From assembly GCF_008831285.2 (NCBI RefSeq), contig NC_045150.1:11267868-11331867 (forward strand): a stretch of 64,000 nt of DNA, written 5' to 3'. The notes below the pieces were generated by a model. It was not told the origin of the DNA and did no database searches. It worked only from the letters and a program-made list of their open reading frames with translations. The DNA comes from Nymphaea colorata. Lineage: Eukaryota > Streptophyta > Magnoliopsida > Nymphaeales > Nymphaeaceae. The translations under genes were made by a program, and so were the position numbers. Shown here in pieces: positions 4,284-50,862 of the stretch (its first letter is position 1; every line of letters starts with the position of its first letter).

Positions 4284-4391
4284 TCACATTGCTCCAGCGC
4301 CTCCACCATTTGAAGCAGTAAGTTTCTTGCTGATAAGGTCCCTCAACTCAATTTCACCAGGAAACCTCTGTGAAGTTAGTTTGGAGAATAC
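4284..4391 (-). CDS. SelT-like exon 4 (C-terminal exon, 13.4 kb from exon 3)
   Basis: 108 nt including TGA. The acceptor is excellent: a long pyrimidine run, then GTTGTAG|GTATTC. The encoded VFSKL...QRFPGEIELRDLISKKL is the expected continuation after VYCNGEL in plant SelT proteins, and phase 0 matches the exon 3 donor. This match ties the exon to the gene despite the distance. The tail after KKL (Gly/Ala-rich) is not conserved. Confidence 0.9.
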   Translation of the reverse strand, partial: VFSKLTSQRFPGEIELRDLISKKLTASNGGGAGAM

Positions 4392-7300
4392 CTACAACAA
4401 AAAAAAAAAAAGGAAAGAAACAGTACCAGGATCATGTTAGATACTACATAAAACGTACTCTATTTGTGAGAACAAAACCTAATTAATTTCCAAACAAACA
4501 TCTGAAGGATTCTTTTTTTACAAATATTGAAATCGATGAAGCTAACCAAGTGCATAAATGACATGAAAAGGCATGTCTGGTCAAAAGGCAACATGAGATC
4601 AGACAGAGGGCATCATAACTTTAACAAGACAATTCAGCAATAACTTTAAACATGCAAAGGAAAAGTCCATATTTTCTGAAAGTCAAAATCATATGTACCA
4701 AGAAACCAAAACTGCATCTATATGAAATAAGCATGCATATGAACAGGAAAGCCCATCAGAACAAACTCGCAGGAATACAAATATTGATTGCCAGGTTAGT
4801 TTGGGGTCACATTGATCGAGGCAAGGCTTAGTGACACCAGCATACGAATGCAAAGAATATCACAAGTTTTCAGAGATTTATACACCGAGAATCAATCCAT
4901 ATGAAGAGTGAACATACATGGCCAAACAACAGTCTCCTTGATAAAACTTGAGAAGGTTTTGGGCTTTGCACACAGTTCATAAATCAAGGCAGTAGCCTTC
5001 CCAGGAATTTCCATTCAAAAACCTCGCTAATAAAGGGCAGAGGGTTTCGGTGGGTCGAATATGTTCACAGGACTTTGGGGCTATGAATCACCAATTTCAA
5101 CTGCATTTCAGATGGTGGACAACAGGACTGTGCTAGAAGAGGGGCTACTGATAGACAAAAAAGATGGAATGGAGGTTCTACATCAAATTGCAAAAATGAT
5201 AAAAAAGTAAACTATATCATGACTGGCAAAGGGAAAAATGTGATTGATCCCCCCCCCCCCCCCCCCCCAACCCATAGAACCAACTACATACACCTTCATG
5301 GAGTTCAAAAGTTAAGAGTTCACGAAGATGATTTATTTGCTGCAGGAGCTGATTATTTGAAAAGCAGAAAGCAAGAACTTCTGAAGAATTATTGGACCAG
5401 ATGTCGTTTGATAAACTGATGGCATATGGTATTCGTATTCTGACCCCTTCTATTGAAAATGGCTCTCAATCCTTCCACGAAGCATGCCAGAAAAATGAAG
5501 AGTAAAACTCAAGAGTTGGGGCTAGATGACTACCAAACAGATTCTTTTGAGGCTTTATAGGATGCCTGAAAATCTTAAATCTTAAAATGTTTCAAGAATT
5601 TCAACAAATTAGGAGGATTCCTGAAGATACTGGAAATTACATTTCCAAAACACAGTACAAACTAATGTTGACCAGATTAGATTCATTATTTTTTTAAAGC
5701 AAACATCCTTAAATTAATGATTGAAGGTCTCGCCCAGAGAAACAAGCCCACAAATCCACTCTATTAGTCTTTCCAGAACATGTCTTTAGCCACAGAAGAC
5801 AAATCCATGTGTCAGATAACTGAGAACGAGGTTATTGACCCTACTGAAAAAATACATCGAGGCTTTCACCTTGAATTTTGCCACATGAAAAGTCTTTAAC
5901 TTCACAAAAAGAGTTCTCTAAGTTTGAGGCTTCAGCTTTAAACTTCAACAATTGTAAAGCCCTTGACTGCACCATTAGGTGTTTCCTGTTTACAGGCCTA
6001 ATTGTTATCAGTAATGGAGAGCAATAACTTTGATGAGTTTTGCTTCTATTGAGCTGTTAGGGGGCCCATGCCTAATAAAATGCCACTGGAGGTTGACATT
6101 AGCACAAGATATTGTGCTGAGTCAAAGAACTCCAATCTTTCAACCAATCAACATGACAGCAAAAAATGGATTTGCTAAAACTCAAGCAGTTTCCTGAAAA
6201 ATAGAATCTAATATGACACTATTAAACTTCAGAGATATCCTGGTTATTCCCAATAAGATTGCTCAGGAACAAAAAATGTCTTCTAAAGCATAATCTGCTT
6301 GCAAGAATCCAATTAGATTAAATTCATCTGGTCTGTATCCTTTCCAAACTTAGAAGAGATGGTGCAAAGTATTGGAAGAATTCAAAAGCAGATCAACCTT
6401 AAAATGTTAGACAACTAAGTCTTATTTCTAGCTGGTGCCTTGGTGCCACTGAGAAACCGTGGATTGAATGCATGCCAAATTTGCTGGATTCATAGTTTAT
6501 GAGAGCAACACAGTGACCAGTCATATTCTGGGCACTTGATGAACACAGAATCCAAGAACACAACATTTAAGATCCAAAAAGTAATAAAATAAAATAAATA
6601 TTATTATGAGTCAATGTTTAACACCCAGTGAGTCAGGACTCCACTCATCCACATCAAGTCAGTGACTCATGACTTGGTGAGTCAACTTGGTGACTCAAGA
6701 CAGGTTATGTAAACTATTAATTTTGAAAAGACACTTGGCCCCATCGGGTCAACCCAGTAACTCGATTCCAAGACTCGTTGTGGCTTCGTCAAAACGCACA
6801 TGACTCCATCAGGTCATGAGTTACAAGTCAGCCGAGCTTTTATTGACTAGATAACTCTAGACCAACGTCACACGGGTACGTGGGTTTTGCCCATGTACCC
6901 ATACCAGTATGGTGGTAAGCCTTGGTACGGTTCAGATCGGTTCTGAGTCAGAACCAATCCAAACCACTTTAAATGAACTCATTTTCGCCAGACACCTCTT
7001 CCTCCTTTGTCCTTAACTTCATACAACATATCTCTGGCAATGGACTCAATGGAGAGCTTTGCTGGCCCGCGGTGACTGGCGATGAACGTCGGCCAGCGGC
7101 AATCAGCGACAGACGTCGGCCAGCAAGGTAAGTGTTTTTTTTCATTCTCTTTTTAGGGCTCTTTAGATTTTTCCCCCTTTGTTGTTTGCTCCCCTATTTT
7201 TTGTGTTTCTTCTGTCATTGTTAGAGAGTTGGATAAACCTTTGTCTAGATTTTTGGCTTGCTCCACAGGCGAACGTGTTCTACTACACCTACAAGTCATC

Positions 7301-8181
7301 TGTTTCCGTGCTCTTTGATTTGAAATTAATCTCACGCCGTGCCATCTGTTTCTTATATTTATGTTACCTTTTTTGTTGATTTCATGTATATAATTAATAT
7401 ATATAACTATCGCCATACTGCTGTACTAGGATTGGTGAAAATGTCGTACCCGTACCTGCTTCCCCGTACCCATACCTATGTGACATAGCTCTAGACAAGA
7501 CACAAATATGCAATGACATCTCTTTAAAATGTAAACAGATTTCTTGATCTAAAAATAAAGAAAATCCACAGGAGTTTTCCGTGCTCTGAGTTGAAATTAA
7601 TCTCACGCTGTGGCATCTGTTTTGTGTCATCTGTTTCTTTATGTTACCTTTTTTGTTGATTTCATGTATATAATTAATATATATAACTATCACCGTACCG
7701 CCGTACCAGGACTGGCGAAAATGTTGTACCCGTACCTGCTTCCCCGTACCCATACCTATGTGACATTGCTCTAGACAAGACACAAATATCCAATGACATC
7801 TCTTTAAAATGTAAACAGATTTCTTAATCTAAAAATAAAGAAAATCCACAGAAGTTTTCCCACCCTTTCATCCCTGTCTAGTTTCCAGAACTGCATTATT
7901 CACCACCCAGCATCATTACTTCCACCAGCAACCATTTTCTGGTGTTTGATTGGTGTGAAAAGTTCCTCTGGTAATGGAAGAACACGTTTACCATATGTTT
8001 TTGCTGTTTATTTTGACGGTTTGGTTGCTGATCTCCATTTTTGCCAATTCTTCCTGCCAGTTTCCCCACAACTTCGAATCCCGTGGACTTGTTACAAAGG
8101 CAGAGAGTGGTCCTACTCAGCTACTAGTCAGACAGAATAGTTGCTGGTTTGACATCAGACATCATAGGCATACTAACGATG

Positions 8182-8240
<59 letters not shown>

Positions 8241-8944
8241 TTGGTAAGTACTAGATAGGTAAGGAACAATCTCAACCATTGATTTTTTTTTTCAAAAGGG
8301 TGGTTGAGAGAAAAAACAAGGAGAAAGGTTATGGGGCACTTTTGTCATCTAATATTAGATCATACTTTTTTCTTATTGTTTTTCTCTCAATTGTGTGTAA
8401 AAGATCAAGGGTTAAGATTGTTCTTTATCCGTCTAGCAACTACCGATTTCTCTCTCTTTATACCTAAGTCACATGGGTACTTTAGTAAGGTCCACGTACC
8501 CGTACCCAAAATGGGTACTTTGACACTTGGGAACCTATAGATCCAAACTACTTAATTTTACTTTGATTTAATTTTTTCTACCTTACTTTTTATTATATTC
8601 TTTAGATGTGAAAATTCGATTGATGTTCATATTTGACTAGGGGGCTGCTTGATTGTCCATATGTTTAAATTTTTTTATAGGTTTCTTAAACACACTGTTG
8701 CAAGAGCCGTTCATATATATTTTTTTATATTATTTATTTGTTTATGTTGATGTATATTTTTTATTTTGATACATATTTTCTAAGTATTTCTTATTGTTTA
8801 TATATATATACGGCCGTACCCCCGCACCCAAGTTTTTTGAAAATGATCAGTATTCGTACCCGCACCGGTACCCGCACCGACACCCATACCCATGATAGAA
8901 ATGTAGCACCAATATCTGTAACCCGAAAACAGCACTCACGCAGG

Positions 8945-8996
<52 letters not shown>

Positions 8997-11900
8997 ACAA
9001 GAAGAAACTGAGGAGAAGAAGCCGTAGCCAAAATGGTTTGCACGGCCTCTATTTATAATCTCATTTTCAGAATTCTAAGAGTCTCCAATCGTAGAATCCT
9101 AGGAGATTTCACAAGCTCCAAGGACATTAATTACATCATAGAAACCTAAGAGACTTCACATATTACAAGGATATTAACTACAACATAGAATCCTAGGAGA
9201 CTTCCCATATAACAAGGATATTAACTATAATATAGAACCCTAGGAGACTCTTCACATGTTACAAGGACATTAAATATTTTAACACATTCTACAAGGAGGT
9301 GGAATCCTAAGAGACTCCTCTTCAACGTGCTGGTGAAGGATTTATATTTTAACACCCTCCCTCAAGTTGTGCATGGTTTTACACCATGTACAACTTGCCT
9401 TTTAGAAACCAGAATCGTTCCTTTGTTAATCCTTTTGTAAATAAGTCTGCAACTTGTTCATCTGTACGAACATAAATAGGCTGAATTTCCTTGTCTTCCA
9501 CCTTTTGTCTAACAAAGTGTTGATCAATCTCAATGTGCTTTATTCGACCATGTTGTACGGGATTAAAGGCAATGTTAATAGCGCTTTGATTATCGCACAT
9601 TAACATTGATGTTTTAATCTTTTCTCCAATGTCTTCTAGCAAATGTCTAACCCATGTAACTTCAGCAGTACCTGCAGCCATGCATCTGTATTCAGCTTCA
9701 GTGCTGGATCTTGCTACTGCCTTTTGCTTTCGACAACTCCAAGACACAAGATTACGTCCAATGAAAATACAAAAACCAGAAATGGACTTTCTTTGATCGG
9801 GATCTCCAGCCCAATCTGCATCTGTGAATGTCATAAGTTGATGTCCAGTAGTTATATTTTCACTCTTACCATAAACTAAGCCATCTCCTGCTGTCCCTTT
9901 AAGATATCTTAATATTCTTTTGACAGCATCCATGTGAGTATCTCTAGGTGCATGCATAAATTGGGATACTTGATTCACAGCATATATAATATCTGGTCTA
10001 GTAAATGTAAGATATTGAAGTGCCCCAACAATACTTCGATATTGCGTAGGATCTTCATATAACTCCCCATCTTGAGCACTTAGTCTTTGATTTAGAACAC
10101 TAGGAGTTCCAACAGGCTTACAATCAGACATACCTGACTTTTTCAACAAATCCAACGTGTATTTCTGTTGTGTCAATGTGAGGCGATTATTGTGCCTATC
10201 AATCTCCACTCCAAGAAAGAATCGTAAATCACCAAGCTCTTTCATTTTGAAGTTTTGCATCATCAAAACTTTAGCTTCTTCTATGTGTTTTTCTGAATTG
10301 CCTGTGATAACAATATCATCAACATATATAAGAAGTAAAGTAAATATGTTTTCCTTTCGATAAATGAAAAGAGAGTGATCTAGAGGACATCTCCGAAAAC
10401 CACATTCTTGAATCTTGCAAGAGAAACTGTCAAACCACGAACGTGAGACCTGTTTAAGTCCATAAATAGATTTTCTTAGTTTGCAAACCCATGCATGAGA
10501 GTCTCCTTTCGTGTATCCTGGAGGTTGTTCCATATATACTTCCTCCCTTAAATCACCATGAAGAAAAGCATTCTTCACGTCCATTTGATGTAGTCTCCAT
10601 CCATATTCAACTGCCAATGATATAATCACGCGAATTGTTCCCATTTTGATCACAGGGCTGAATGTCTCATCATAATCTTCTCCATATTGTTGTGTAAACC
10701 CTTTTGCTACTAACCTTGCTTTGTGTCTTTCTATGCTGCCGTCAGGTTTGTATTTAATTTTGTATACCCATTTGGAGCCCACTACGTTCTTTTCGTGTGG
10801 CCTCGGAACGATCTCCCATGTTCCACATTCATGCAAGGCATCCATTTCTTCTTTCATAGCCTTTCTCCAATGATGTGATTTTGATGCTTGATCAAATGAA
10901 GTAGGTTCTTCCTCCTTGCCAACTTTTGCCATGAATAACTGAAAATCAAGTGATAAAGAATCATAGCTAACCCACCTGTGAATGGGATGACGAATGCGTT
11001 GGGATCTTCTAAGGTGGGGCATGTTGTCTTCTTCACTGTGAGCATCTCTGTCCCTTAGTCGTCGACTGTAGATAAGACCTGAATACCGATGTGCATCGTT
11101 GCTCTGTTCATTATTGTTTTCGTGATGACTTGATGACTGTGTTGGATCTTCTTGATTTTCACTTTGAGTCATATCCGACGGTTGTATTGCTCTCTCTGAA
11201 TCTTCACTTTGAGGCACATCATTTTCTATAACAGGATCTGCATTGAATAACTGTGTACTGGTCCAGGGATCATAAGATTCAATGGTCATAGGCATTTCAT
11301 TTGTATTATCAAAACTATGTTCATCAAAAATGACATTTCTTGAAGTTTTGATACGTTTAGTTGTTGGATCATAGCATCGAAAACCTTTATATTCATCAGC
11401 ATATCCAACGAATCTACATTGAATAGCTTTGTCTTGAAACTTGTTCCTCAAGGCAGCATCAACGTGAACATAGCATACACAACCAAAAACCTTCAAGTTC
11501 TTGTAATCAGGTTGTTTGCCTAAGAGTGTAAAATATGGCGATTTAGACATCAAGAGTGTCATAGGCAAACAATTTATTATGTATACAGCAGTATGGAAGG
11601 CTTCAGTCCACAAGGAAATGGGCACATTAGTATCATGCATCATGCTCATGGCGCTTTCAACTATATGTCGATGTTTCCGCTCAACTACACCATTTTGTTG
11701 TGGTGTGTAAGGGCAGGAAATTTGTCTAGTTATCCCTTTTTCACGTAGAAATTCAATAAAATCAAACGAGGAATATTCTCCCCCTCCATCACATTGAAAA
11801 TGCACCACATTGGATGAAAATTTAGTTTGAATCATGGCATAGAAGTTTCGAAATATGTGAGGTACTTCTGATTTGTGTTTCATGAAGTAAATCCAGGTGA

Positions 11901-13937
11901 AACGTGAGTAAGAGTCAATGAATAAGACATAATATCTTGACCCAGACATGGAATCAATAGGGGCTGGCCCCCATACATCAGAAAAAATAGTTTCAAAAGG
12001 TTTGGAAGCCCTTTGATTTATATTATGGAAAGGTAAAACATGACTCTTACAAAGTCCACAACTTGAACATTTTTTTACACTTGAAGTAAGAGGTAAACTT
12101 GATCTTGGAATGAGACTATCTGTGACAAGTTTTTCAATGAAATGTCGACCACAGTGTCCTAGCCGACTATGCCACAAATCAGACTCCAAAAATTGGTTAG
12201 GGCCCCTTACTTTTGATTGAAAATGGCAAGAACTTGGCACTGATGACGCATTATGAGAAAGAGAAAATGTCTTCAATCCTATATCAAAAGTGGATGAATC
12301 CTTGGGTAGACATTCCTTGAGGACGTACATATTCCCTTGACGCTCCCCTCTAGCGAACATTTTCTTCGTTTGGAGGTCCTTGACATAGACAGAAGAAGGT
12401 GTGAATTCAACAGAAGAGCTTGTATCATCAATGAGTTTAGAAATGGATATGATGTTCTTTTTGATATTGGGAGCAAGAACAACATTAGACAGTGATAGAG
12501 ACGAGGATGACAATGGAATATGTGCATTTCCAATATGTGTAATAGGATGAGATTTTCCATCACCTGTTATAATGCAACTTCTACCGTAATGAGGGGATAA
12601 GTTAGTCAATTTACCTGCATTTCCTGTCACATGGGTAGCTGCACCTGAATCCAAGAACCATTCTCCCTGCTCATTTTGCTTTATAGTCATCTTTGAGAAT
12701 GCGGCCATCAATAGCTGTTGCATATCTTCAGCGGTGGATTTAGAACTTTGTCCTCCTTGTTTATAATCATGTCTTACCCCTTTGTTTTTATTTTGAGGAT
12801 TAAACCAACATTGTGCCTTCATGTGTCCTTTCTTGTTGCACTGAAAACAAATTGGTATTTTTCTTGAAGTATCCAAAGGAGACATACCTTGGTTATGTGG
12901 TGTTGGTAGAATGCCACGACCACCATGGTTGGAGTTCCCATGGCTCTTACCAAACTTTACATTCATAGCCAACACATTTTGGGAGTTCCCTTGATCAGTC
13001 CTTTCAATGACTCTTTTCATATTCATTTCATGTTGGAGAAGTTTACCTTGTAGTTCGTTGAAGGAAGGCAGAACAGGAAGGACCTCAAGAGCTGTAATAA
13101 AAGCATGATAATCATGCCCAAGTCCATTCAAGGTTTGCTGCACCTTTTCCTTATCAGAAATGTTATTCCCTGAAGCAGCAAGTTGGTCTGCGATGGCCTT
13201 AATACGCCCCAAATAATCCATGATAGACGTTGAACCTTTGCTCAAATTCTGAAATTCTTTCTTTAAGTACATAATTCGAGCTTCTGATATTTGGGAAAAG
13301 GTATCAGCAAGGGTTTCCCATAATTCTTCTGCAGTACAATCATCAGAAACTGAAAGTAACACTTGTTGAGATAAAGTGGACAAAATATACGCAACCAGAC
13401 TTTGATCACGTCTCATCCACATAGCATGTTCAGGATTGTTGTCTTCATGAACAGCAATAACTTCTCCTGCCTCATTTTTTATTTCCTGTAAGACGGATAT
13501 TGGTGGAGCCTTTGTTGAACCATCGAGATGTCCAAAGAGGCCTTGACTTCTTATGAAAGGCATGATTTGCCTTTTCCAGATCAGATAATTCTCATGGTTG
13601 AGTTTTTCGGTAATAAGGTGAGGAAGAAAACTTGAGGACATGCCAGAATGCGAAAGGTTTTCCATGACAGCAGAAAGGAATGGTATATAGGTAGAAGATG
13701 AGAGGGAAAGAAGACACGATATAACAAGATGTGTCCTTGGTAAGCAAGAAGAAAAAGGAACAAGAATTACGCAAGAGAAAAGTAAATTCAGGATAGAGAC
13801 AAGATGAGAAAAGAGTTCTAACCAGATCAGACCTGTTTGGGCATTTCGTTTGGTAGAGATAACGTAACCTGGCGCTCTGATACCATGATAGAAATGTAGC
13901 ACCAATATCTGTAACCCGAAAACAGCACTCACGCAAG

Positions 13938-13981
<44 letters not shown>

Positions 13982-14402
13982 ACAAGAAGAAACTGAGGAG
14001 AAGAAGCCGTAGCCAAAATGGTTTGCACGGCCTCTATTTATAATCTCATTTTCAGAATTCTAAGAGTCTCCAATCGTAGAATCCTAGGAGATTTCACAAG
14101 CTCCAAGGACATTAATTACATCATAGAAACCTAAGAGACTTCACATATTACAAGGATATTAACTACAACATAGAATCCTAGGAGACTTCCCATATAACAA
14201 GGATATTAACTATAACATAGAATCCTAGGAGACTCTTCACATGTTACAAGGACATTAAATATTTTAACACATTCTACAAGGAGGTGGAATCCTAAGAGAC
14301 TCCTCTTCAACGTGCTGGTGAAGGATTTATATTTTAACAACCCATACCTATGTGACATAGCTTTATACATACATACATATATACACACATGTGTGTATGT
14401 AC

Positions 14403-14447
<45 letters not shown>

Positions 14448-14560
14448 TCCCCATACCCATACCAAGTCTTTTGAAAGTCTTCCACACCCATGCCCATACC
14501 AACACCCATACCGGGACTTGTACCCATATGACATAGATGCACAGATACACACAACAACAT

Positions 14561-14600
<40 letters not shown>

Positions 14601-17600
14601 CCAATAAAAGTTATAAAACAATAAATGTTTGATCAACAACATGACCTGATTTTTCAATATATATTCATATTTATCTACATCTGAAGCATGAAAACACTAA
14701 CAGAAAACTTGATAAAAATCCCATAAAAACAACAGATAATGAGACTTCAATTAAGACTTAAGAGTATAAGTGCCAACTGCCAAATCAATTCATAGCTTTA
14801 TCTTCATATGAAGAAACAATGGTAACAGATAAACACAATCAAAATCTGAGAAAAACAAGCGATTAACAGACTCAAAAATAAGATTATAAGTGCCAAATCA
14901 GGTCATATTCATATAATAAAAGCACTAACGGACTCAATAAAGATAAAAAATAAAAGAAAGTCCTAAATGTTGGACAATTTTGGACTGGATCAAAATCTGA
15001 CGAAGTTCGAAATTGGACAGATTCAGCCTTGTGTGCATTGACCGCATCTGACAAGGTCAGAGCCGCACACAATCTGCATCCATAACCAGACCCGACCCAT
15101 CCCAGTGACAGGTTGTGTCGTCAATGATACTTATCCCCTTTGGAAGTGTGTATGTTACCTTGCTGTGCATATATATACGTACATATTGGGTGAATACGTG
15201 ATCTATGTGATATTTTGTATCTTTCTTACTTTTGGCTCTTTTGACAACTTAGAGAGAGAGAGAGAGATGGCAAAAAAGAGAAAGGGGGCTTCAGTTCTTT
15301 TATATTTTGTTTACAAGAAAATTTTAAAATTCTACTTTCAGTCCCCACATGCATAGTCATGTCTTAGTGCGCACTAGATGAGGCCCTAGGTGAGTCTGTT
15401 ATTCTTGTCATATGAGAACATAAGCCTAGGCAACCGAACTAGCATGGCTCACCAAGAGTGCTTCAACGAGCTCTTAGGCTACCTAGACTGGAGAACCTAT
15501 GTACGATAGCAACATTGAATCCTTCAATAACAATCCTAACTTGGACACAAGAAAGCTGGAGTAATTGCATTGTCGAGTCATACAATCTTAGATAATGGTG
15601 TAATGTTGACTTGACAGCCCATTAGCATGGCAGTATGAGATGATGTGGACACCAATAATGCCATTTTTTGAATGAACAAAAAAGTTAACATACAATTTGT
15701 ATGGTAACCTAATAGATGCAAAAGCAGAAAACGGCTGCTGAAATGAAGCTCACAAGCTATTAAAGAGGTTTTGAAATGCCACTTGCAAGCTAACCTGAAC
15801 AGCGAGCAATATTGGATGGCCAACAAATATGTGCAAGCACTAATCAATATAAAAGGCCAGGTGCCTTGGTAATGTTGAAGAAGCATAGATGCACAACTTA
15901 CTAGAAAAAGATAGTAGCTAAAATGATAAAGAAGACATGCTGAAGTAACAGAGTAGAGAAAACATTTTCACAAATCATGACAAACAGAGGGTGCTAAATA
16001 GTTTTTGTACATATCATTTTCCATCCATATCACATTTTGTTAGGTCATTCATAGCATAATGAGCAAAATAAAATTTATCAGTCAATAGCAGACCTACATG
16101 CATCAGCACATCAGTGAGACATCAACTTTGGAGGAAGTGTTCCAATGGCCACAAACTTGTAAATCAGGCCCAAAGAGACAAATACTTCAAGCAAATCAGC
16201 CTTGAAGCTTCCACCAACAAGTCAAACTCACAAGCCCTCAAACAAGAGGTGAAGAAGAACTTCAATTAATCACAATAAGGGATACATAAAGTAGGCTAAA
16301 AAGCCATAACCTTACACTAGAGAACCTACACTATTTATAAGGAAGAAGACAAAAGAGAGGAGAGAGCTAGCCGTTGGGACTAGTCTCCCCTTGGGTCCCC
16401 TTTGGATAAAATAAAAAAGGGGCAGGGGTAAAACAGGAAAAATACAGAAAATAAAAAGACAAAAAGAAGGTAAAAAGTTACATAAATATCCTAAGTACCC
16501 AAACCTATAAAATACATATATATGTATATATGACACATATTAGATGACTAATATATGTAATGTATATACATATATGTATGTATAGAAGGGATACATACAT
16601 TCTAACAAGACTCACACTACAAGAGCACTCAATGTTGGTCTGCACAAAGTATACTGTCCGAATGTACATAATAATTGCCTCAGTTTTGTGGACAATCAAA
16701 AGATTCTAGCATAAGTGCCACCATTCTAAGGAATTTTCATGGGAAGAAAACACTTTTGGTATGAAAAAAGAATATTTTCAGTGAGAACAAGCATGGGAAA
16801 TCGCAATATGGTAACTAATCACTCATGGCTGTAACTCATAGCAAGAAGTTTTGACTGTCCTCCCATGCAAAATGTTTTTCCACATATGGATCATCCAGTG
16901 CTTATCATCTCTTACCTGGGTCTTGTTTTTCTTTATTCTTTCCTTCTTTTTTTTATTCTTACCAATTTTAGGTTACCATTTTCCATGTAACCCTTGTCCT
17001 CAGTGTTTTTCTATTTGTGAAACAAACAGAACGTAAAGTCCTCGGTGTTTTCCTATTTGTGAAACAAACAGAACGTAAAGTTTTCAATACAAGCATTTTT
17101 TTCCCATGTCTGTTTCTAAAGGAAAGATATTCTCCAGCAGAGAGAAGTAGACACAAACCAAACATACCCCAATTGCAAAAAAGAAATCACTGATATTCTC
17201 AGACAAGAAATAATTCAAACTTTGGCTTTGATGGAGCTATACAATGCCAAAAAAAGCGGGTAAACAGTGACATGATTAAAGAGGTTGGATTTGCCTTAAA
17301 AACTACAATGGAGAAACCATACACTACCAGATTGGTTGTACTAGGCAACTTCCTAAGGTATATTGCTGCATTGCCATATCATCATTTTAGAAGACAAAAA
17401 AGGTTCAAGCTTTTGAAAATTATTCTCTGTCAATGCCATCACACCAATAAATCACTTCTTCTAAAAGTCGCCACATTCTGGAAAAGAAAAACTTGACAGG
17501 GGAACTTTTAGGAGAAAATGGTGCATACATTGCTCATCCATGATTCCATTCCTGTCCATGTATAGAAGCAGTGTGCACAAAATGAAAGGACTCTAAATTT

Positions 17601-20399
17601 TGGGTTCGTTCTTGAATAATTAGAAAAGGCATGAGCACAAGTTCAAGTTACAAGGTAATGCAAAACCTGGTAGCTAAGAATTACATGGTTGCCCCAAAAG
17701 GACAAATGATTGTGACCTAGACTCCACACAGTGCCAAGTGTGTGTCCTTTTCTGTGTATTTTTGAGGAAATGAAGGTCATAATCAGTGTCAAAGTATCTA
17801 TGAAGCACATGAAAGGAATTCTGCTTACCAACTCTCCGTTACAATAAACTTCAAATGCTCCAGAGCTTTGAAGAAATGATTGCACCATATTTCCAAGAAG
17901 CCACGTTGATGCAATACTTCCAAATTTATTAGCACGCAAGGAGTAAAACCAGGGTGGTGGCACCATATATCCCAGTCTTGGGAATATTTGCTCTCCTGCC
18001 ACGATAACTGCTATAACTCCCATCTGCATAGCTGGCACTACTTTGCTAAGAAGGCGCTTTGGAAGAGTGGGAGGATGATTTGAAAGAACAATATTTAATC
18101 CAGGAAAGGAAGTTTCCAGCATCTTCTTCATTGTTACTGCAGTTCCCCTATGGAAAAGGGAAAAAAGCATGGAATTGAGTACTGAAAGCAGACGGCATCT
18201 AAAACAAAAGAACAAACTTCAAAGATGTTTTTTTTTTTTTTTAAAAAAAGCAGGTTTTTGTTCAGATAGTAACAATAGTTTCCTTCAGTAGAAGGTGAGC
18301 ATTTAAGTGGAGGGCCAAACAGGCAGAATAGTGGAGATATCATTCATGGAACGTGTATAGACCCATCCAATTGGTTTTCCCCAAAATTTTTAAGAAATAT
18401 GAAGATCAGGTAAACATGAAGAACATTTCCAAGGAAAATTATCATGATTTATGAACTTGAAACAATTAAGGTAAACAAAACATCTTGACAAAGCAGACCA
18501 CAAACAAATACGACAGGAGAAGAAAAAGGGAATGATGATGTTAATCAAAAAGACACTCCCAAGAAGGCCAAATATTAGTTTACTCATGGTAGCTTAAACA
18601 TATTGACATCTGGACAACAACACTCTTAAGCCAATGCTTCCAAGTCCCGTATTCAATTTGAAACAAAAATGAGGTTGTTATCAAACTTAAAGGCAACTTC
18701 CACAAACAGCAATTGTATCTCTCTGCTGTCATTTTTTCCCTCAACTTTGGATTTTGATCCATCTCAACAACTCTGCATCCTGTAGTTGCAACTTATTTTC
18801 GCCATTTTCTTTGCATGACATTGTAGAGAAAGATTTCAAATACATTTCAAGAGAACTCCAGACATATTCCCCCTCTCACTTCCTGCAACTTCTCTCACTC
18901 TGGTTCCTAACTTGACAAATCTAATCTAGACTAAAGGATGTGGGCCACATAATGATCCAGCAAATATGCCACACAATCAAACATGGAAAGATACAAAGTA
19001 AAGATTTCAAACTCCAGATAAGTCTAGATTGACCCCAACAGCTCATGAACATCTATAGGTTCATCCCTTGAGTACCTGACTGATCCACTCATTTCATGCT
19101 TTTAAGTATCGAAACTCAAGGAAGGACCAGCATAGCATACAAAATACACATCTAAGGACAGACCCGGCATCTAATGTCTTTAATGACTGACACTCAAGTA
19201 AAGTGCACAATTTAGATATGTATAGTGTTTAGGTTGAGAACTATAAATAGTGGATACAGAAATATGTAAAATATAACAGTTTTCTGGCACTGCTGCATCA
19301 TTGTAAAAATTCTCAAATAGATGGTTATGAAACCCACCATCGCCCTACCAACTTTTCACTAAGAAATTACATGGTAAGGTTTTGCAGATAATAAAAAAGC
19401 AGAAAGGTTTTCAGATAATAAAAAAACAGAAAGCCCGTATGCAAGCCAACAGATCACGACGATACAGTTCCCACGTAGAAACAAACAAAAACGAATGGGC
19501 TACATTTGGCAACAAGTGAACTTCTAGCCGTTACTTTACAACTAGGAAGACATTAGTCTCATCATCATTTTGAATGTGTTACCATGAAATATTGTTGCTG
19601 TCGAGTTAGGGCCTCCCATCACCCCCTCACTCATAGAGGAAGAAAATTGCTTTCAATTTCAAAATATCACAATAAAGAGGAAAAAGCAATCATGTCTCTT
19701 GCCAGTTCGTACCGACTCCATAAGGGAGGGAACCAACAAAACCAATTAAGGAGGACGCAACAGCATGCAGATGCAAGAAGATTATCATGGTCATGAACAC
19801 AAGCAATGAGGACAGCCAGTAGCTTCCACATAATCTATTGTAACGGCATGACGAAGTCAATCAACACAAGGAAACGACGTATTCTTTGCAGCAGATCAAC
19901 AAGAAATAGAAACCATCAAAGTCAACCCAAACCAAAAGATCTCTTCCCACAAAAACAGAAACAAGAGAAAGAAAATCACTTTGATTCAAGAGGCAACATG
20001 AGAAGGAGGGGAAAGGAACAATTAGGGTTGGATATGCAATGAGAGAGAAAATAAAAACCTGTAGGAGCAAGAGGCACAAAAGTCAATGTGAACGCTCGAT
20101 CCGACGCCGAGTCCGAGGCCTGCATACTGAGATTCCTGCTTCACAAATAAACGCAACCAATAAGAGAAACAACTCCAAGAGCGTGAACGAGAAGGGGAAA
20201 GAGAGAGAGAGAGTACTGGTGAGGTGGGGAACTCGAGAGGGGCGTCGATGACAGGAGGAGGAGGCACATGTCGTTTCAATGGCGGTTGGTGGTGGTGCCG
20301 AGGTGGGGGAGGAGGGCGGCTGAAGAGGTGGATTACGTCGGAAGCAAACAGGAAGAGAGGCAAGCCCACCAGAAGCAGCTGCACGCGATCCATCATCAC
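4284..20399 (-). CDS. SelT-like protein (plant selenoprotein T homologue, Cys form), four exons
   Basis: Joined minus-strand exons are 20399-20217, 20135-20059, 18147-17829 and 4391-4284, giving 687 nt and 228 residues, the usual size for plant SelT-like proteins. All junctions are GT-AG and keep the frame (phases 0, 2, 0). The N-terminus (MDRVQLLLVGLPLFLF) is a signal or anchor segment, followed by a Pro/His-rich linker. The redox motif is FCASC (Cys81, Cys84), where animals carry selenocysteine at the second position. The core then shows GTAVTMKKMLE, FPKR-like PKRLLSKVVP, AGEQIFP, PPPWFYSLRANKFGS and LQSSGAFEVYCNGEL, and the end shows VFSKL, RFPGEIELRDLI. SelT proteins are thioredoxin-fold membrane proteins of the endoplasmic reticulum; a redox role is family knowledge. 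The first of three consecutive ATGs is taken as the start, so the true start may be up to two codons later. The last intron is exceptionally long because of transposon insertions. I see no stop or frameshift. Confidence 0.9.
5250..5268 (+). repeat. Poly-C run
   Basis: About 19 consecutive C bases; likely length-variable. Confidence 0.9.
6590..6960 (+). repeat. GACTCA/TGAGTC-rich dispersed repeat
   Basis: Dense GAGTCA and TGACTC motifs from 6608 to 6850, followed by a GTACCCATACCAGTATGGTG stretch and GGTTCAGATCGGTTCTG. Noncoding, within SelT-like intron 3. Confidence 0.45.
7303..7855 (+). repeat. Tandem duplication, unit about 275 bp
   Basis: Unit 1 (7303-7575) and unit 2 (7576-7855) share nearly all sequence, including GTACCCGTACCTGCTTCCCC and CCCATACCTATGTGACAT. 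Inside SelT-like intron 3. Confidence 0.88.
8184..8239. repeat. (AT)n(GA)n compound microsatellite
   Basis: (AT)n to 8218, then (GA)n running into the fold-back MITE. Confidence 0.95.
8219..8466. mobile_element. Fold-back MITE in SelT-like intron 3
   Basis: Terminal inverted repeats of about 55 bp: GAAATTGGTAAGTACTAGAT... at 8237 and its imperfect complement ending ...CTACCGATTTC at 8450. Inner segments (TTGAGAGAAAAAACAA near 8302 and TTGTTTTTCTCTCAA near 8378) also pair, so most of the 250 bp can form one hairpin. It lies next to a (TA)n(GA)n tract. Confidence 0.7.
8455..8892 (+). repeat. GTACCC-type low-complexity repeat, split by the copia element
   Basis: Clusters of CGTACCCGTACCC at 8497-8512 and CCCGCACCGGTACCCGCACC at 8859-8880 belong to the same repeat as 7440-7490. 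The right half continues at 14340-14530. Confidence 0.65.
8893..9354 (-). repeat. 3' LTR of the copia element
   Basis: 462 bp, TGATAGAA... to ...TTTTAACA on the plus strand. It contains a (GA)n tract at about 8948-8991 that is longer than in the partner LTR. Confidence 0.95.
9355..9372 (-). promoter_or_regulatory. Polypurine tract of the copia element
   Basis: The minus strand reads ACTTGAGGGAGGG immediately before the 3' LTR, the expected position of the plus-strand primer. Confidence 0.8.
9379..13665 (-). CDS. Ty1/copia Gag-Pol polyprotein, intact
   Basis: 1428 residues from the ATG at 13665 (MENLSHSG). The open frame extends upstream to 14028, but that part lies in the LTR and primer-site region. 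Order and approximate residues: Gag with IWKRQIMPFIRSQGL near 30; zinc knuckle CFQCNKKGHMKAQC near 272; aspartic protease FLDSGAATHVTG near 335; GAG-pre-integrase LWHSRLGHCG near 496; integrase core with SDVWGPAPI near 560, QCDGGGEY near 627 and ERKHRHIVE near 663; reverse transcriptase WVYKIKYKPDG near 963 and YVDDIVITG near 1113; RNase H TDADWAGDPDQRKS near 1278 and STEAEYRCMA. The order PR-INT-RT-RH is diagnostic of copia. No stop or frameshift is visible, so the element may be autonomous. Confidence 0.96.
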   Translation of the reverse strand: MENLSHSGMSSSFLPHLITEKLNHENYLIWKRQIMPFIRSQGLFGHLDGSTKAPPISVLQEIKNEAGEVIAVHEDNNPEHAMWMRRDQSLVAYILSTLSQQVLLSVSDDCTAEELWETLADTFSQISEARIMYLKKEFQNLSKGSTSIMDYLGRIKAIADQLAASGNNISDKEKVQQTLNGLGHDYHAFITALEVLPVLPSFNELQGKLLQHEMNMKRVIERTDQGNSQNVLAMNVKFGKSHGNSNHGGRGILPTPHNQGMSPLDTSRKIPICFQCNKKGHMKAQCWFNPQNKNKGVRHDYKQGGQSSKSTAEDMQQLLMAAFSKMTIKQNEQGEWFLDSGAATHVTGNAGKLTNLSPHYGRSCIITGDGKSHPITHIGNAHIPLSSSSLSLSNVVLAPNIKKNIISISKLIDDTSSSVEFTPSSVYVKDLQTKKMFARGERQGNMYVLKECLPKDSSTFDIGLKTFSLSHNASSVPSSCHFQSKVRGPNQFLESDLWHSRLGHCGRHFIEKLVTDSLIPRSSLPLTSSVKKCSSCGLCKSHVLPFHNINQRASKPFETIFSDVWGPAPIDSMSGSRYYVLFIDSYSRFTWIYFMKHKSEVPHIFRNFYAMIQTKFSSNVVHFQCDGGGEYSSFDFIEFLREKGITRQISCPYTPQQNGVVERKHRHIVESAMSMMHDTNVPISLWTEAFHTAVYIINCLPMTLLMSKSPYFTLLGKQPDYKNLKVFGCVCYVHVDAALRNKFQDKAIQCRFVGYADEYKGFRCYDPTTKRIKTSRNVIFDEHSFDNTNEMPMTIESYDPWTSTQLFNADPVIENDVPQSEDSERAIQPSDMTQSENQEDPTQSSSHHENNNEQSNDAHRYSGLIYSRRLRDRDAHSEEDNMPHLRRSQRIRHPIHRWVSYDSLSLDFQLFMAKVGKEEEPTSFDQASKSHHWRKAMKEEMDALHECGTWEIVPRPHEKNVVGSKWVYKIKYKPDGSIERHKARLVAKGFTQQYGEDYDETFSPVIKMGTIRVIISLAVEYGWRLHQMDVKNAFLHGDLREEVYMEQPPGYTKGDSHAWVCKLRKSIYGLKQVSRSWFDSFSCKIQECGFRRCPLDHSLFIYRKENIFTLLLIYVDDIVITGNSEKHIEEAKVLMMQNFKMKELGDLRFFLGVEIDRHNNRLTLTQQKYTLDLLKKSGMSDCKPVGTPSVLNQRLSAQDGELYEDPTQYRSIVGALQYLTFTRPDIIYAVNQVSQFMHAPRDTHMDAVKRILRYLKGTAGDGLVYGKSENITTGHQLMTFTDADWAGDPDQRKSISGFCIFIGRNLVSWSCRKQKAVARSSTEAEYRCMAAGTAEVTWVRHLLEDIGEKIKTSMLMCDNQSAINIAFNPVQHGRIKHIEIDQHFVRQKVEDKEIQPIYVRTDEQVADLFTKGLTKERFWFLKGKLYMV
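13871..13885 (-). promoter_or_regulatory. Primer binding site (initiator tRNA-Met)
   Basis: The minus strand reads TGGTATCAGAGCGCC directly inside the 5' LTR, the standard plant copia primer site. Confidence 0.9.
13886..14339 (-). repeat. 5' LTR of the copia element
   Basis: 454 bp with the same ends as the other LTR. Differences seen by eye are A for G in the CACGCAAGAAG stretch, and two near 14215-14225 (C for T, T for C), plus a shorter (GA)n tract. The promoter should drive transcription leftward, the same direction as the host gene. Confidence 0.95.
14340..14600 (+). repeat. Right half of the GTACCC-type repeat with (TG)n and (CA)n tracts
   Basis: CCCATACCTATGTGACATAG directly after the 5' LTR matches 7467 and 7747. 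(GT)n at 14414-14444 and (CA)n at 14561-14585 follow. Confidence 0.75.
16998..17081 (+). repeat. 42-bp tandem duplication in SelT-like intron 3
   Basis: Two units (16998-17039, 17040-17081) with two differences, ending AACAAACAGAACGTAAAGT. Confidence 0.9.
17829..18147 (-). CDS. SelT-like exon 3 (core domain)
   Basis: 319 nt, acceptor CCATAG|GGGAAC, donor GAGTTG|GTAAGC. It encodes residues 87-193, from GTAVTMKKMLE to VYCNGEL, the best conserved part of the family, including the internal hydrophobic segment around MQMGVIAVIVAGEQIF. Confidence 0.93.
20059..20135 (-). CDS. SelT-like exon 2 (CxxC redox motif)
   Basis: 77 nt. The acceptor reads GAAGCAG|GAA and the donor TACAG|GTTTTT, splitting an Arg codon after two bases. 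It encodes the conserved GLGVGSSVHIDFCASCSY segment with the CxxC pair. A second acceptor nine bases downstream (TCTCAG|TAT) would remove three residues without changing frame. Confidence 0.85.
20217..20399 (-). CDS. SelT-like exon 1
   Basis: Encodes residues 1-61: the hydrophobic N-terminal segment and a proline/histidine-rich linker. It ends in PTSP at a donor reading CCA|GTACTC, phase 0. The reading frame stays open through the following 81-nt intron, so this donor is chosen because the intronic Ser/Leu/Arg-rich stretch from (GA)n does not look like SelT protein. Confidence 0.8.
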
Positions 20400-28392: not shown

Positions 28393-29078
28393 CTAAGAAT
28401 CTGCTGCTGCCCATTCGCTTCCCTGTATGAAGCCCTCAACAGAATACATGTAGACATTTTGGGACGGAATCTGGCTGCTCCACGGCACCCTGCCAGTGAT
28501 GTTGGCGCCAGGCCCGGTGTTCTGGAACTCACCGTAGTACAGCGTGCTCAGTGCGAAATCACCATCCCACGGCGCCCATCCTTCAGGCCGGATAATCCTT
28601 TCCAAGTACGAGTTCAGGAACACGGTCCGGGAGAACTGCTTCCACGGCCGGCCAAGGTAGCTTTTTTGAACCTTCGGATTCGTATCGTAGTAGCGCAGGT
28701 AGTCGTCGGTGCCAGTGATCACGCAGTTGTCGAAGACCAGCCCGGAGGCCTGCGCCGGATCGGTCCGGCCGTGGGCGGTGACGGTGTTGGTGGCGCCCTT
28801 TTCCGGCGAGAGCTGGCGGGGGGCGACCAGGATGGTGCAGTTGTGGAAGACGGAGGCGGAATTGCCGAAGATGAAATCGACGGTGCCCTGGATGCGGCAG
28901 GACTTGTAGAACTGGCGGAGCGTGTGGACGTACAACGTGTCTTGGTGGCCGAGGAATTCGCAGTTCTCGATGAGGGAGAAGTCGCTGTCCGACCGGAACG
29001 CCACCGCCTGGTGGCTGTCCGGCCCGGCAGTGTTCTGGAATGTTATTCCGCTGGCCATGAAGCCATCGCCGTTCACTC
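28393..29078 (-). CDS. Pectinesterase exon 2 (catalytic core)
   Basis: 686 nt from acceptor TTGGCAG|GAGTGAAC to TAG. Joining to exon 1 gives [24 protein letters not shown], the standard PME sequence. It carries every catalytic motif except GVYDE. Confidence 0.95.
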
Positions 29079-31067
29079 CTGCCAACCAACAAAACGAAGC
29101 GGCATGTGAAGCGGATGTCCTACTAAAACCAGGATGTAAAATGAACCAGACATGCCTGGTTATGGATCTAACTTTGCACCTCAGTGCAGCTCTATTTAGT
29201 GAAGAAACCATGATGAATTTAAGGCCCAATTTTGAGAGGAGAAAAGAATGTCCGATCTTAAATCCCCGGTCTCAGATCACCGGTAATTTCAGACCAACGG
29301 TGAAACAAAGGGGACTGTCCGTCCCATATCACCGTCGAGATCATCAAAGTCTAACAAAAAACCAAATTATTTTTCAAAATCTCCATCAAGGACCCCACAC
29401 TCCCAAACTTCTCCCTTCTAATATCGAATGCATGCCTTGAATAGACCAATCTCTCGAAGTGACAGAAGCACCCCACAAATGGGTGAGCTTCAATACTTGG
29501 GCATTTTCCGACCTCCAGATTCCGATGAATAAGGCGAGAGACTGGCCACTCAATCGTCAGTCAGTCAATTTCAAGGTTTCGGCATTTTTTAGCTCCGGAT
29601 TGCGACGTATACGGCAAGAGATTGGACGCGGGACTAGGGTTGACCGGCGGCCGGCTATAAAGTGCAGGCTTCACTAGCGTTTTACGGGTGAGAATTGGCA
29701 TTTGAATAAATGTCTGCGAAACTTTAAAAACAAGTTATTTTGAAGATCACATTCGCATCATAAAGCATAAATTTACAAAATTTCAGTACTTAACTGCCGT
29801 TAACATAGAAAGGGAACGAGGCTGGCGTGTTCATAATTCATAACAAGCTATTTTGAAGACGTCGACACGAACGCTTAAAGATATCGTGCTTTTAGCGCGA
29901 TAAGAAGGTTGGTTTTTGAATATATCGTTAGAAACTGCGAGCACGGAAGGACGGCCACTGGAGATCTTTCCAGTCCTTGGCCAACGGATTAAGGTCAATT
30001 TGGTAAAATAGACTGGCAAAATTTGAGAGGGGAGGGGACTTACCAACTGTAGCGGTATTGTAAGTGGAGACGCCGATCATCTGGGCGTTGAGATTGCCTG
30101 TAATGACGGTTTTGCCCATGCCATCTCCTAAAAAGACGACGTTGGTCTTGTCGTAGGGCACCCGGACGATCTCGTCGTAGACCCCTTCCTTTATCTTGAT
30201 GACGAACAAGGCCGAGCCGTGACTCGGAGCCGAGTCGACGGCCGCCTGAATCGTCCCGAGACAGCCGTTCGAGCCGTCCTTGCAGACCACCACGTCCGGC
30301 GAGAGGGAGTCGAAGCCGCGCTGGAGGCGGGAGGGGAGCGTCGGGCTCTCCTTCGATGGAGCGCCGGTGGCGGGGACGAAGCCGTCCCTCTCCGTCTGCG
30401 GCGGCCCCCACGAGGCGGTGTCCGTGCCGAACCGATCGAGGGCGAAGACCATGCTGAGGGCGTTGCTGGTGACGTTGAGAAGGTCCGCCAGGAAGGCCAT
30501 GGCGGAGTCCACCTGCTTCGTGGTGTTGACATACTTGAGAGCGCTCCAGCAGTCGTACTGGTAGGTCAACCCGGCGCTCAACCACGCGCGGGCGTCCTTG
30601 ACGTGGGACTCGAGGACCCCCGGTGCGGTGACGACGCCGAGACGGCGGGCGGAGTAGCCGAGGAGCTCGATGCAGTTGCGGGCGGCGTTGGTGCGGTTCT
30701 TGTCCGAGCCGGAGGACGCGAGGATCGCGTCGGCCGTCGATCGGGCTGTCTGGAGCGAAGCGGCGGAGGCGAGGATCGCGGACCTGGTCAAGTCGATGGC
30801 GCCGTGGCCCGCCGCAGATTGGGACAGGGTTATGGCGCAGGTGTCAGGGTAGCGTGTGGCGGAGCACGCCTGGCTGATGGCGGAGGAGGGGGCGGACGCT
30901 GGGGCGGGGGAGGGACCCCTGAGGCTGGACGAGGGATGGGAAGAGTGGTGGTGGATGTGGGAGTGGTGATGGTGGTGGTGGAACGACGACGGTGGCGGAG
31001 CGGAGGCAGAGGCGGAGGCCCAGAGGAACAAGAGGAAAAGGAGGAAGGGGAGACGGAGAGGAGCCAT
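28393..31067 (-). CDS. Pectinesterase/pectinesterase inhibitor (type I PME), two exons
   Basis: Joined exons 31067-30044 and 29078-28393 encode 569 residues. The enzyme removes methyl esters from cell-wall homogalacturonan. Residues 1-22 are a signal peptide ([21 protein letters not shown]), followed by a His-rich stretch (11 His in residues 30-44). The inhibitor-like domain has its four cysteines in the contexts [19 protein letters not shown] and YDCWSAL. The catalytic domain starts at about 257 (DVVVCKDG) and carries GVYDE, QAVAFR (Gln365), QDTLY (Gln387, Asp388), DFIFG (Asp409) and LGRPW (Arg485, Trp487), so all catalytic residues are present. An upstream in-frame ATG at 31160 is rejected because it would bury the signal peptide. 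I see no clear RRLL/RKLL processing motif between the domains; only RLQR near 245. Exon 1 is very GC-rich compared with its surroundings. The exact family member is not assigned. Confidence 0.95.
29079..30043 (-). other. Pectinesterase intron, 965 bp
   Basis: GTAAGT...TTGGCAG. No internal gene or transposon recognised. Confidence 0.9.
30044..31067 (-). CDS. Pectinesterase exon 1 (signal peptide, inhibitor domain, start of catalytic domain)
   Basis: 1024 nt ending in STYNTATVG at donor GTTG|GTAAGT, phase 1. Splitting after TATVG is the position commonly seen in plant PME genes. High GC gives long shadow frames on the opposite strand. Confidence 0.93.
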
Positions 31068-31103
31068 GGCGTCAGGTGAAGAGAAGGGAGGTGGCATTCG
31101 GGT

Positions 31104-31115
31104 CCCTTTTAAAAG
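31104..31115 (-). promoter_or_regulatory. Possible TATA box of the pectinesterase gene
   Basis: Palindromic TTTTAAAA about 40 bp upstream of the ATG. If used, the 5' leader would be very short, so this is a weak call. Confidence 0.25.
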
Positions 31116-31974
31116 CATCAACGGAAGACAAGCCAGATCCGGCTGGGACATGGATGGCATTTTTTGAATTATCTAGGGGTATTTTTCGGATTTCGGAGAT
31201 TCACGGGCGAAACGACCCTGCCGAAGAAGGCATTTTTGGTTTTTTCCGTTTGCCTCGAATGTCCTTTTTGCCCTTAGACATTTCAGAATTGACTCCGCCT
31301 ATGTGGTGCCTCTGACATCATCAGCTGCCTTGTCGGTTCTACCTAACCTAACTCCCCCTCCCGTCCCGTGTGAGTCGGGTCGGCCAAGATCTGTGTCTGA
31401 AATTTGACTTTTTTTTTTGAAACCGGATTGAGTTTGACTCCGAAAGTATTTAAGTTCTAAGGTATGATTTTTGCCGCATTAAAGATTGTGAGTTTGATTT
31501 TCATAAGCGTTTAATTGTGAGTTTGATTTTCATAAGCGTTACTATCTCTCTTTTTCTATGAACTTTTATTTGATCATTTTGCTAAAACTGAAGCACTTAT
31601 CAAGGAAGTAAAAGAAGGTAAAGTTTTTTTTGGGAGTCATGAGTAAAAGGTAGTGCCAAAAATGATTTTTTTTTTCTTCTAAATATGAAAGTGTATATAA
31701 ATAGCGTGTTTACTAATTAATTGGCGTCCCAAATTCAGCTTCAAAGGAACGGTTGGGAGGATTCAATGTGAAAAACAAAAACAGTAAAAGCGCAACAAAC
31801 ATGAACGTGCGACCAGAGAAGCTAATGTTAGGATGCAGAATTATTAGAAAGCGAGAGGTTGAAGATGAAATTCTGTTAGGATGGGCGCCGAACGACGAAC
31901 ACCCAACAGCATGTTCGGTCCCTCACCAGCCTCTTGCAGGGAGTATGCTATGGTTATATTATATGGATAATTAA

Positions 31975-39529: not shown

Positions 39530-41535
39530 TCTGGCTCCAGCCCTAAGGGCAACTCGTGTCCAAATTTCATGAAACATATACCATTACGTATAGAAAGCTC
39601 TTCTTATGTCACACCATCACTCACCGGTGCACATCATTTCTTTACCATTGTTGATGTCTATTCACAATGCACATAGATTCGTTTGATGAAATTCATATGA
39701 AACTTATTATTTTCTCGTCAAATTTTGTAACCTTCTTAAAAATCAGTTTCAAGCCACTGGTAAGAAAGTTTGCATGGATAATGGAAGTGAATTTCTCTCT
39801 AACGCCATGTAACAAAACTTTCATGATTGTGGGATAGAGCACCAACACACTTGTGAACTTCAAGGGGTGGTAGCGTACTGGACGGCAAGGTAGTCCGGTT
39901 TTTGTAAGGACTCTTGTTCGAATCTTGAAATGGTCACTGTCACGTTCTAGTGCGCTCTATCTCTGGCCCTTAAAAGGGCCCAAAACATGCTTTGTAAAAT
40001 CCCAGGGAGGTGGGCACAGGGGGAGCCAATGGCCTCTCTTAAGGGTAGGGTGGTGGAATGAACCATCACCCTATAAAAAAAAAAATGAGGCACTTGTGTG
40101 GGGGAAGGGTTGAGTATAAACACAACCATCTCCTCCTAGAACTTGCTGGAGCATTGCATTTCCAAGCCAATCTACCCATCACTTTATGGGAAAAATGTAT
40201 TCTCACTGCTGTTCACCTTATCAATGGAATGCCAACCTCACTCCTTGATGATAGAGTCCTTATGAGATGCTTTTCAACTACATACCAAGATATGAACATC
40301 TTAGAAGTTTCGGTTATCTTTGTTATGTTTGTTGGTTATCCTTATGGTCAGCATGAATATAAAGTCTATTATGTCGACACTAAGGAAACTTTCACTAACA
40401 GAGATGTCAGGTTTCATGAAAATATTTTTCCATCTCAAAGTAATACTATGCCTACCACAACACCTCCACCAGTATTACTACAATCCATGATTGGCGAGGC
40501 TACTCTACTACATAGTTGTCCAATTACTAGTACTAAATGTACCCAACAACCATGAGTCCATAGAAGAAACACCACCAAATAGTCATGACACCTCCTTCCA
40601 CTACACCCAAAACAACACTACTGTGCCCAAGCCCACACCGCTTCGTCACTCCACCAGACCTCACCATCGCCTTAATTACCTCTTGGATTTTGTGTGCAAT
40701 GTTTCTAGCACTCAACCCACATCTGATGGTACTGCTCTATATGAATATCTTCCCCTTTCTAAGTTTTCTCACTCTCACTGTGCTTTTCTTAGTTCCCTAT
40801 TATGCGAAAAGGAACCTACAAGTTTCAATGATGCCTCCATAAATCCACATTGGCAAGTGACCATGGCTGAAGAATTCGGGCCTTAGAAGACAATGGCACT
40901 TAGAAGATCATTAATTTGCCTCCCAACAAATGTGCCATTGGTTGCAAATGGGTCTATAAAACCAAAAGACATCTTGACGGTTCCATCAATTGCTACAAAT
41001 TTCAGCTCATCGCTAAAGAATACACCCAAATCAAGGGTTTGTATTATCATGATACATTTGCCCCTTTTGCCAACCAAGGCCAACTATACTTTGTTTACTT
41101 ATCGCACCAAGTCAATTAGTACAATTGTGTTAGTATGTGTTGATGATTTGTTGTTGCAGGTAATAATGGTACCCATATACCATCTTCAAAACAATTTTTA
41201 GGAATTCAGTTCTACATCAAAGATTTGGGCTACTTAAAACATTTTCTTGGAATTGAAGTCGTAAGGTCGCCCCAAGGGACATTTCTAAACCAAAGAAATG
41301 ATGCATTAGATATTCTCACAGATGCAGGTCTTCTTGGAGCTAGCCTATGTGAATTTCTAATGGACCAAAAACTTAGCTTGACTAGGGATGAAGGCAAACC
41401 TCTTAAAGATCCCTCAAAATAGTGAAGATTAGTAGGGTGTCTCCTATATTTAACCGTTACTCATCCTGACATAGTATATTCTATAAACATTTTGAGTCAA
41501 TTCATGCATACACCACAGAAATCTCATTATGGTGC
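39530..41535 (+). pseudogene. Decayed Ty1/copia element (integrase to RNase H), interrupted by a SINE
   Basis: Recognisable in several frames: integrase HHFFTIVDVYSQCT, a DNGSEFLS box near 39780, ALHFQANLPITLWEKCILTAVHLINGMPT, FVGYPYGQHEYKVYYVDTKETF, reverse transcriptase CKWVYKTKRHLDGSINCYK, VDDLLL, DLGYLKHFLGIEVV, and HPDIVYSINILSQFMHTP. Many stops and shifts; no LTR found by eye. A different copia lineage from the intact element at 9-14 kb. Confidence 0.85.
39862..40090 (+). mobile_element. tRNA-derived SINE nested in the copia remnant
   Basis: Starts GGGGTGGTAGCGTACTGG with an A-box-like TAGCGTACTGG at 39871 and a B box GTTCGAATC at 39916, the spacing of a Pol III internal promoter. It ends in an A-rich run of about 11 A near 40075. 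The host sequence CACTTGTG...GGG appears on both sides (from 39848 and from 40091) as an imperfect target duplication of about 20 bp. It splits copia codons just before VE(R/Y)KHNHLL. Confidence 0.72.
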
Positions 41536-48002: not shown

Positions 48003-48003
48003 A

Positions 48004-48017
48004 TTGGTATCAGAGCT
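48004..48017 (+). promoter_or_regulatory. Primer binding site (tRNA-Met) of the plus-strand gypsy copy
   Basis: ATTGGTATCAGAGC follows the LTR end; the minus copy has the same arrangement. Confidence 0.85.
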
Positions 48018-50860: not shown

Positions 50861-50862
50861 TG

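Follow-up and report, generated by a model that had tools for sequence, protein, structure and literature searches.

A SelT-like gene with a 13.4-kb last intron that contains a full-length, sense-oriented copia retrotransposon

When a plant intron holds a transposable element, the outcome depends on the chromatin of that element (Le et al.). The loci of Le et al. include the Arabidopsis genes RPP7 and AT1G11270, the latter with a full-length ONSEN, and PMC4417168 and PMC7529245 place elements of about 5 kb inside introns of both genes. According to PMC4417168 and PMC12112155, the AT1G11270 element is the copia element ONSEN (COPIA78) with an intact ORF. PMC7529245 describes RPP7 transcripts that, on loss of EDM2, terminate within the COPIA-R7 5' LTR, and PMC12112155 describes ONSEN-terminated transcripts as well as full-length ONSEN copies that are cleanly spliced. 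In grape, PMC3058033 reports that EST mapping identified 2,697 introns of 3 to 100 kb, that about 80% of the expanded intron space consists of transposable elements, and that large introns led to annotation errors, split genes among them; in many genes, an end exon was either superfluous or absent. In rice, PMC7145194, which concerns OsIBM2, states that more than 10% of genes have intronic heterochromatin, most of it associated with transposons or repeats.

We analyzed a 64,000-nucleotide stretch of Nymphaea colorata DNA (the window), in which a first-pass annotation had described a SelT-like gene with a distant, short terminal exon and a transposon-loaded last intron. Like AT1G11270, this gene had a full-length copia element with an intact ORF inside one of its introns, and like RPP7, it had an intronic copia of about 5 kb, with a 5' LTR in which a host transcript could end. 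In contrast to AT1G11270, both the gene and the element were different ones, and the intron was the last one and lay between coding exons; the RPP7 copia, by comparison, is in the first intron. Unlike both Arabidopsis cases, the present one is known from the sequence alone. The intron fell within the 3- to 100-kb class of grape and was enlarged by a transposon, as are the grape introns, but the recognized element made up 41% of it (5,447 of 13,437 bases) rather than the roughly 80% given there for transposable elements. The heterochromatic introns of rice are enriched in promoter-proximal positions, whereas the intron studied here was the last.

The coordinates of the gene and of the features in its last intron are listed in Table 1. 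The gene model was on the minus strand and had four coding exons, which together formed a coding sequence of 684 nt whose spliced translation was 227 amino acids long. All three introns had GT...AG ends, with phases 0, 2, and 0, and the junction between exons 3 and 4 fell between residues 192 and 193. The 36-codon terminal exon of the first-pass annotation was recovered as 35 codons plus a TGA, and the 13.4 kb given for its distance from exon 3 agreed with the measured intron length. The gene edge had been put at 20399, and this required a small adjustment, as the first ATG began three bases inside it.

Table 1. Features of the SelT-like gene and its last intron (window coordinates)
Feature	Position	Strand	Remarks
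Exon 1	20217..20396	-	180 nt; ATG at 20396-20394; end phase 0
Intron 1	20136..20216	-	81 nt; GT-AG
Exon 2	20059..20135	-	77 nt; holds the C-A-S-C redox motif
Intron 2	18148..20058	-	1911 nt; GT-AG
Exon 3	17829..18147	-	319 nt; main part of the SelT domain
Intron 3	4392..17828	-	13,437 nt; GT-AG; phase 0
Exon 4 (terminal)	4284..4391	-	108 nt; 35 codons + TGA; C-terminal end of SelT/W/H domain
Ty1/copia LTR retrotransposon, full-length	8893..14339	-	5447 bp; LTRs and target duplication; in the gene's orientation
5' LTR	13886..14339	-	454 nt; TATA-like TATAAATA at 14042
Primer-binding site TGGTATCAGAGC	13874..13885	-	directly after the 5' LTR
gag-pol frame, single, open	9379..14037	-	1552 codons, stop to stop
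3' LTR	8893..9354	-	462 nt
Tandem duplication	7303..7860		about 280 nt per copy; in intron 3
Imperfect inverted repeat	8230..8457		arms of 59 nt with 81% complementarity; resembles a MITE only in form; in intron 3

The model was least certain at the junction between exons 1 and 2 because the intron 1 donor, CA|GTACTC, matched the consensus at only three of eight positions. In addition, intron 1 has a length that is a multiple of three and contains no in-frame stop, and if retained it would lengthen the protein by 27 in-frame residues. The N-terminal 60 residues were therefore the least secure part of the protein. This junction also lay outside the reach of the family profiles, which start at residue 75. 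A second copy of an exon was considered as well and rejected, since no self-match of the window at E values up to 1e-8 covered one.

The spliced protein matched Pfam Rdx (PF10262) with 67.2 bits (cut-off, 22.6) and NCBIfam TIGR02174, the SelT/SelW/SelH model, with 84.9 bits (cut-off, 34.2), and these matches upheld the SelT-like label that the gene had been given. The matches covered positions 2 to 73 of 74 in Rdx and 1 to 73 of 74 in TIGR02174. A third model, NF041051, gave 47.5 bits, far under its cut-off of 88, as expected for a model named for Campylobacter. The protein resembled the SelT/SelW/SelH (Rdx) family in this near-complete profile coverage and in carrying a CxxC motif early in the domain. 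It differed from the family in the redox motif C80-A-S-C83 (codons TGT GCC TCT TGC), which has a cysteine where selenocysteine stands, and no other peculiarity was noted.

SelT is set apart from SelW and SelH by a long hydrophobic stretch inserted between the halves of the domain; SelT proteins are further characterized by residence in the ER and by an oxidoreductase function. Residues 75 to 213 of the protein aligned to 73 positions of TIGR02174, which left about 66 extra residues inside the match, and the best 19-residue Kyte-Doolittle mean in this extra stretch was 1.9, from residue 118. We assigned the protein to the SelT subgroup because of these extra residues and their hydrophobic stretch. 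The nearest solved structure by sequence was 2ljk ("Protein C17orf37"; E = 3.3e-7), which aligned in two pieces, namely, a weak one at residues 70 to 105 (9.5 bits) and the best one at residues 174 to 221, which spanned the exon 3/exon 4 junction. The Selenoprotein W structure 2npb gave an E value of 0.7. Searches for relatives of the spliced protein returned 3 pattern matches in viral contigs and 39 in genome contigs, and tblastn confirmed none of them. No paper on plant SelT gene structure was among the literature matches listed, judging by their titles and the opening lines of their abstracts.

The Rdx score was 67.2 bits with exon 4 and 42.4 bits without it, and the TIGR02174 score was 84.9 and 57.8 bits, respectively; thus, exon 4 contributed 24.8 bits in Pfam and 27.1 bits in NCBIfam. 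Without exon 4, the TIGR02174 match ended at position 52, and exon 4 resumed the profile at position 53 and carried it to position 73 of 74. We also considered whether exons 1 to 3 read through into intron 3 as a family-like tail. This idea was rejected, as the read-through product scored 43.8 bits in Pfam against 67.2 bits for the spliced protein (the TIGR02174 comparison was between the forms with and without exon 4). Exon 4 by itself matched TIGR02174 with 13.9 bits (E = 0.05), at exactly the missing positions 53 to 73, and had no Pfam match at E values up to 1. Because exon 4 alone matched weakly, the case for it rests on the join and on a control set.

The control set consisted of every AG in intron 3, from 60 nt into the intron onward, that led in phase 0 into an open frame of 20 or more codons closed by a stop. 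There were 282 such stretches, which shared 120 distinct stops. The longest stretch for each stop was scanned in 119 of the 120 cases, and the long frame of the transposon was scanned separately in pieces. A family match was found in just one of the 119 candidate terminal exons, which was exon 4; the two other matches listed were to unrelated families, with E values of 0.11 and 0.13, in a scan in which the HMMER filters drop most matches above an E value of 0.1. The fit of the family sequence to exon 4, which the first-pass annotation had put forward, was borne out by this result, and the same scan spoke against the terminal exon nearer exon 3 that it had named as a refutation.

The splice signals and phase fit, as had been proposed. 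The exon 4 acceptor ranked first among the 742 AG sites that lie beyond the first 60 nt of intron 3 by its pyrimidine-plus-T count (first of 750 when the AGs of exon 4 were counted), with a score of 32 compared to 31 for the runner-up at 14932. The donor consensus is AG|GTAAGT, and the intron 3 donor, TG|GTAAGC, matched it at six of eight positions; 39 of 794 GT sites, this donor included, fit the consensus as well or better. A branch-point-like CTAAC began 49 nt upstream of exon 4.

As shown in Table 1, a single element occupied much of intron 3. Its LTRs had TG...CA ends, and the 5-bp target duplication TGGGT (minus strand) was present on both sides. The sequence directly after the 5' LTR, TGGTATCAGAGC, is presumably a primer-binding site that matches initiator tRNA-Met, and a second copy of the TATA-like TATAAATA was located at 9057. 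The gag-pol frame began inside the 5' LTR and encoded 1428 amino acids from its first Met at 13665. When the frame was scanned in pieces, the Pfam matches came in the order Retrotran_gag_2, Pol_BBD, gag_pre-integrs, rve, SH3_retrovirus, and RVT_2, which is the copia order; the gag_pre-integrs match, at 26.6 bits, was under its cut-off of 28.4. A pattern match identified SSTEAEY, which we take to be a copia motif, in the frame, and RNase H had no Pfam match in the last frame piece at E values up to 0.001.

The two LTRs differed by three substitutions in 454 aligned positions and by one 8-nt gap in an AG microsatellite, and the K2P distance was 0.0067. At a substitution rate of 1.3e-8 per site per year, the insertion would be roughly 0.26 million years old, or 0.51 million years old at half that rate, with a wide error on both ages since the dating relies on three changes only. 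The insertion site, at 8881-8892 and 14340-14352 of the window, was within a short GGTATGGGT repeat, and the flanks were alike beyond the 5-bp target duplication.

Without the copia element and one copy of the target duplication, intron 3 would measure 7,985 nt. This remainder included the tandem duplication and the inverted repeat listed in Table 1, and microsatellites also occurred within the intron. Four intron 3 frames (15581-15964 and 7397-7825 on the minus strand, and 5090-5416 and 17197-17493 on the plus strand) had no Pfam match, and neither an Rfam scan of the window at the gathering threshold nor a tRNA scan gave a hit. More elements may lie in this part of the intron. The description of the intron as transposon-loaded held for the one full-length sense copia and its 41% share; the four frames scanned in the remaining 8 kb or so gave no Pfam match.

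Several other features were observed in the window. At 28393-31172 on the minus strand, upstream of the SelT-like gene and on the same strand, was a pectin methylesterase gene of at least two coding pieces that includes a PMEI domain of the plant type; like the family and the copia element, this neighbor points to a plant genome. A copia-type pol fragment with an SH3_retrovirus match was found at 40049-40555 on the plus strand. The region at 46945-55075 contained two related retrotransposon regions that were inverted relative to each other, with 72 to 86% identity over pieces; aspartyl-protease matches occurred on either strand, those to gag and the Ty3 capsid occurred on the minus strand only, and the frames were in several pieces. 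An AT-rich palindrome, which contained a TA microsatellite and was 78 to 95% identical to its own reverse complement, was present at 1490-1698.

What can be read from the DNA itself, namely, the exon structure and its phases, the splice dinucleotides, the match to the family, and the anatomy of the element, supports a functional-looking SelT-like gene, of the Cys form of this thioredoxin-like family. In this gene, intron 3, with its young sense copia, is very probably spliced from 17829 to 4391 to give the 227-amino-acid protein. A different outcome, in which most transcripts end inside intron 3, either ahead of the 5' LTR (about 14.3 kb) or within it, would make a truncated protein the usual product and leave exon 4 rarely or never used since the insertion. 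The copia is full-length and in the sense orientation, as this would require, and there are precedents in two papers, namely, the RPP7 transcripts that end in an intronic copia 5' LTR in edm2 mutants (PMC7529245) and the ONSEN-terminated transcripts from genes near or around ONSEN copies (PMC12112155). Moreover, reading through from exon 3 would add 61 codons before a stop. However, a scan for 11 hexamer-type patterns gave no AATAAA in the LTR; apart from the TATA box, it gave only AATATA and TATAAA at the 5' edge, which are no more than weak hints of a poly(A) site. The loss of profile positions 53 to 73 would also remove part of the conserved domain. In addition, exon 4 has an open frame and has retained its acceptor, its branch-point-like motif, and its family residues, although this intactness argues weakly against early ending because an insertion as young as the K2P distance suggests leaves little time for decay. 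Overall, we consider it rather improbable that most transcripts end early.

Two other explanations concern the distance itself. It seems extremely improbable that another terminal exon nearer exon 3 provides the C-terminus and that 4391-4284 is a decoy: the great length of the intron, the large number of in-phase stretches behind an AG (the 282 stretches and 120 stops of the control set), and the nearly equal score of the acceptor at 14932 leave room for such an exon, but the only TIGR02174 match among the 119 scanned stretches of at least 20 residues was in exon 4. Repeats are the usual sites of misassembly, so the copia or other pieces of the intron might have been wrongly joined to create a false distance. 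Yet the element is bounded by a pair of LTRs, carries a primer-binding site, and is flanked on each side by one and the same 5-bp target duplication, as a real insertion would be, and an assembly artifact is very improbable.

If the full-length, spliced gene is the correct reading, RNA polymerase would transcribe about 16 kb through the whole gene, and the 13.4-kb last intron would be removed by ordinary splicing that joins 17829 to 4391. The copia would be kept silent by methylation and H3K9me2, which would allow elongation to pass the element, and a part of the transcripts may terminate prematurely at the 5' LTR, as has been reported for RPP7 and AT1G11270. We infer the use of this splice, the silencing of the element, and the occurrence of some early ends. 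It is also conceivable, although we think it unlikely, that the copia acts as a switch: the full 227-amino-acid SelT would be made when the element is silenced, and transcripts would stop at the 5' LTR when silencing weakens, as under stress or in tissue culture. If so, the last 35 residues of the protein would be replaced by a 61-residue tail encoded by the intron.

The gene is an ordinary case of a transposon-enlarged plant intron, a phenomenon that is in general well documented for plants. By analogy with the annotation errors reported for large introns, it is plausible that annotation pipelines would miss exon 4. The analysis yields a gene model that runs the full length of a SelT-like gene with an easily lost last exon. 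It also supplies one more case of a copia element that is full-length, apparently young, and in the sense orientation within a conserved gene.
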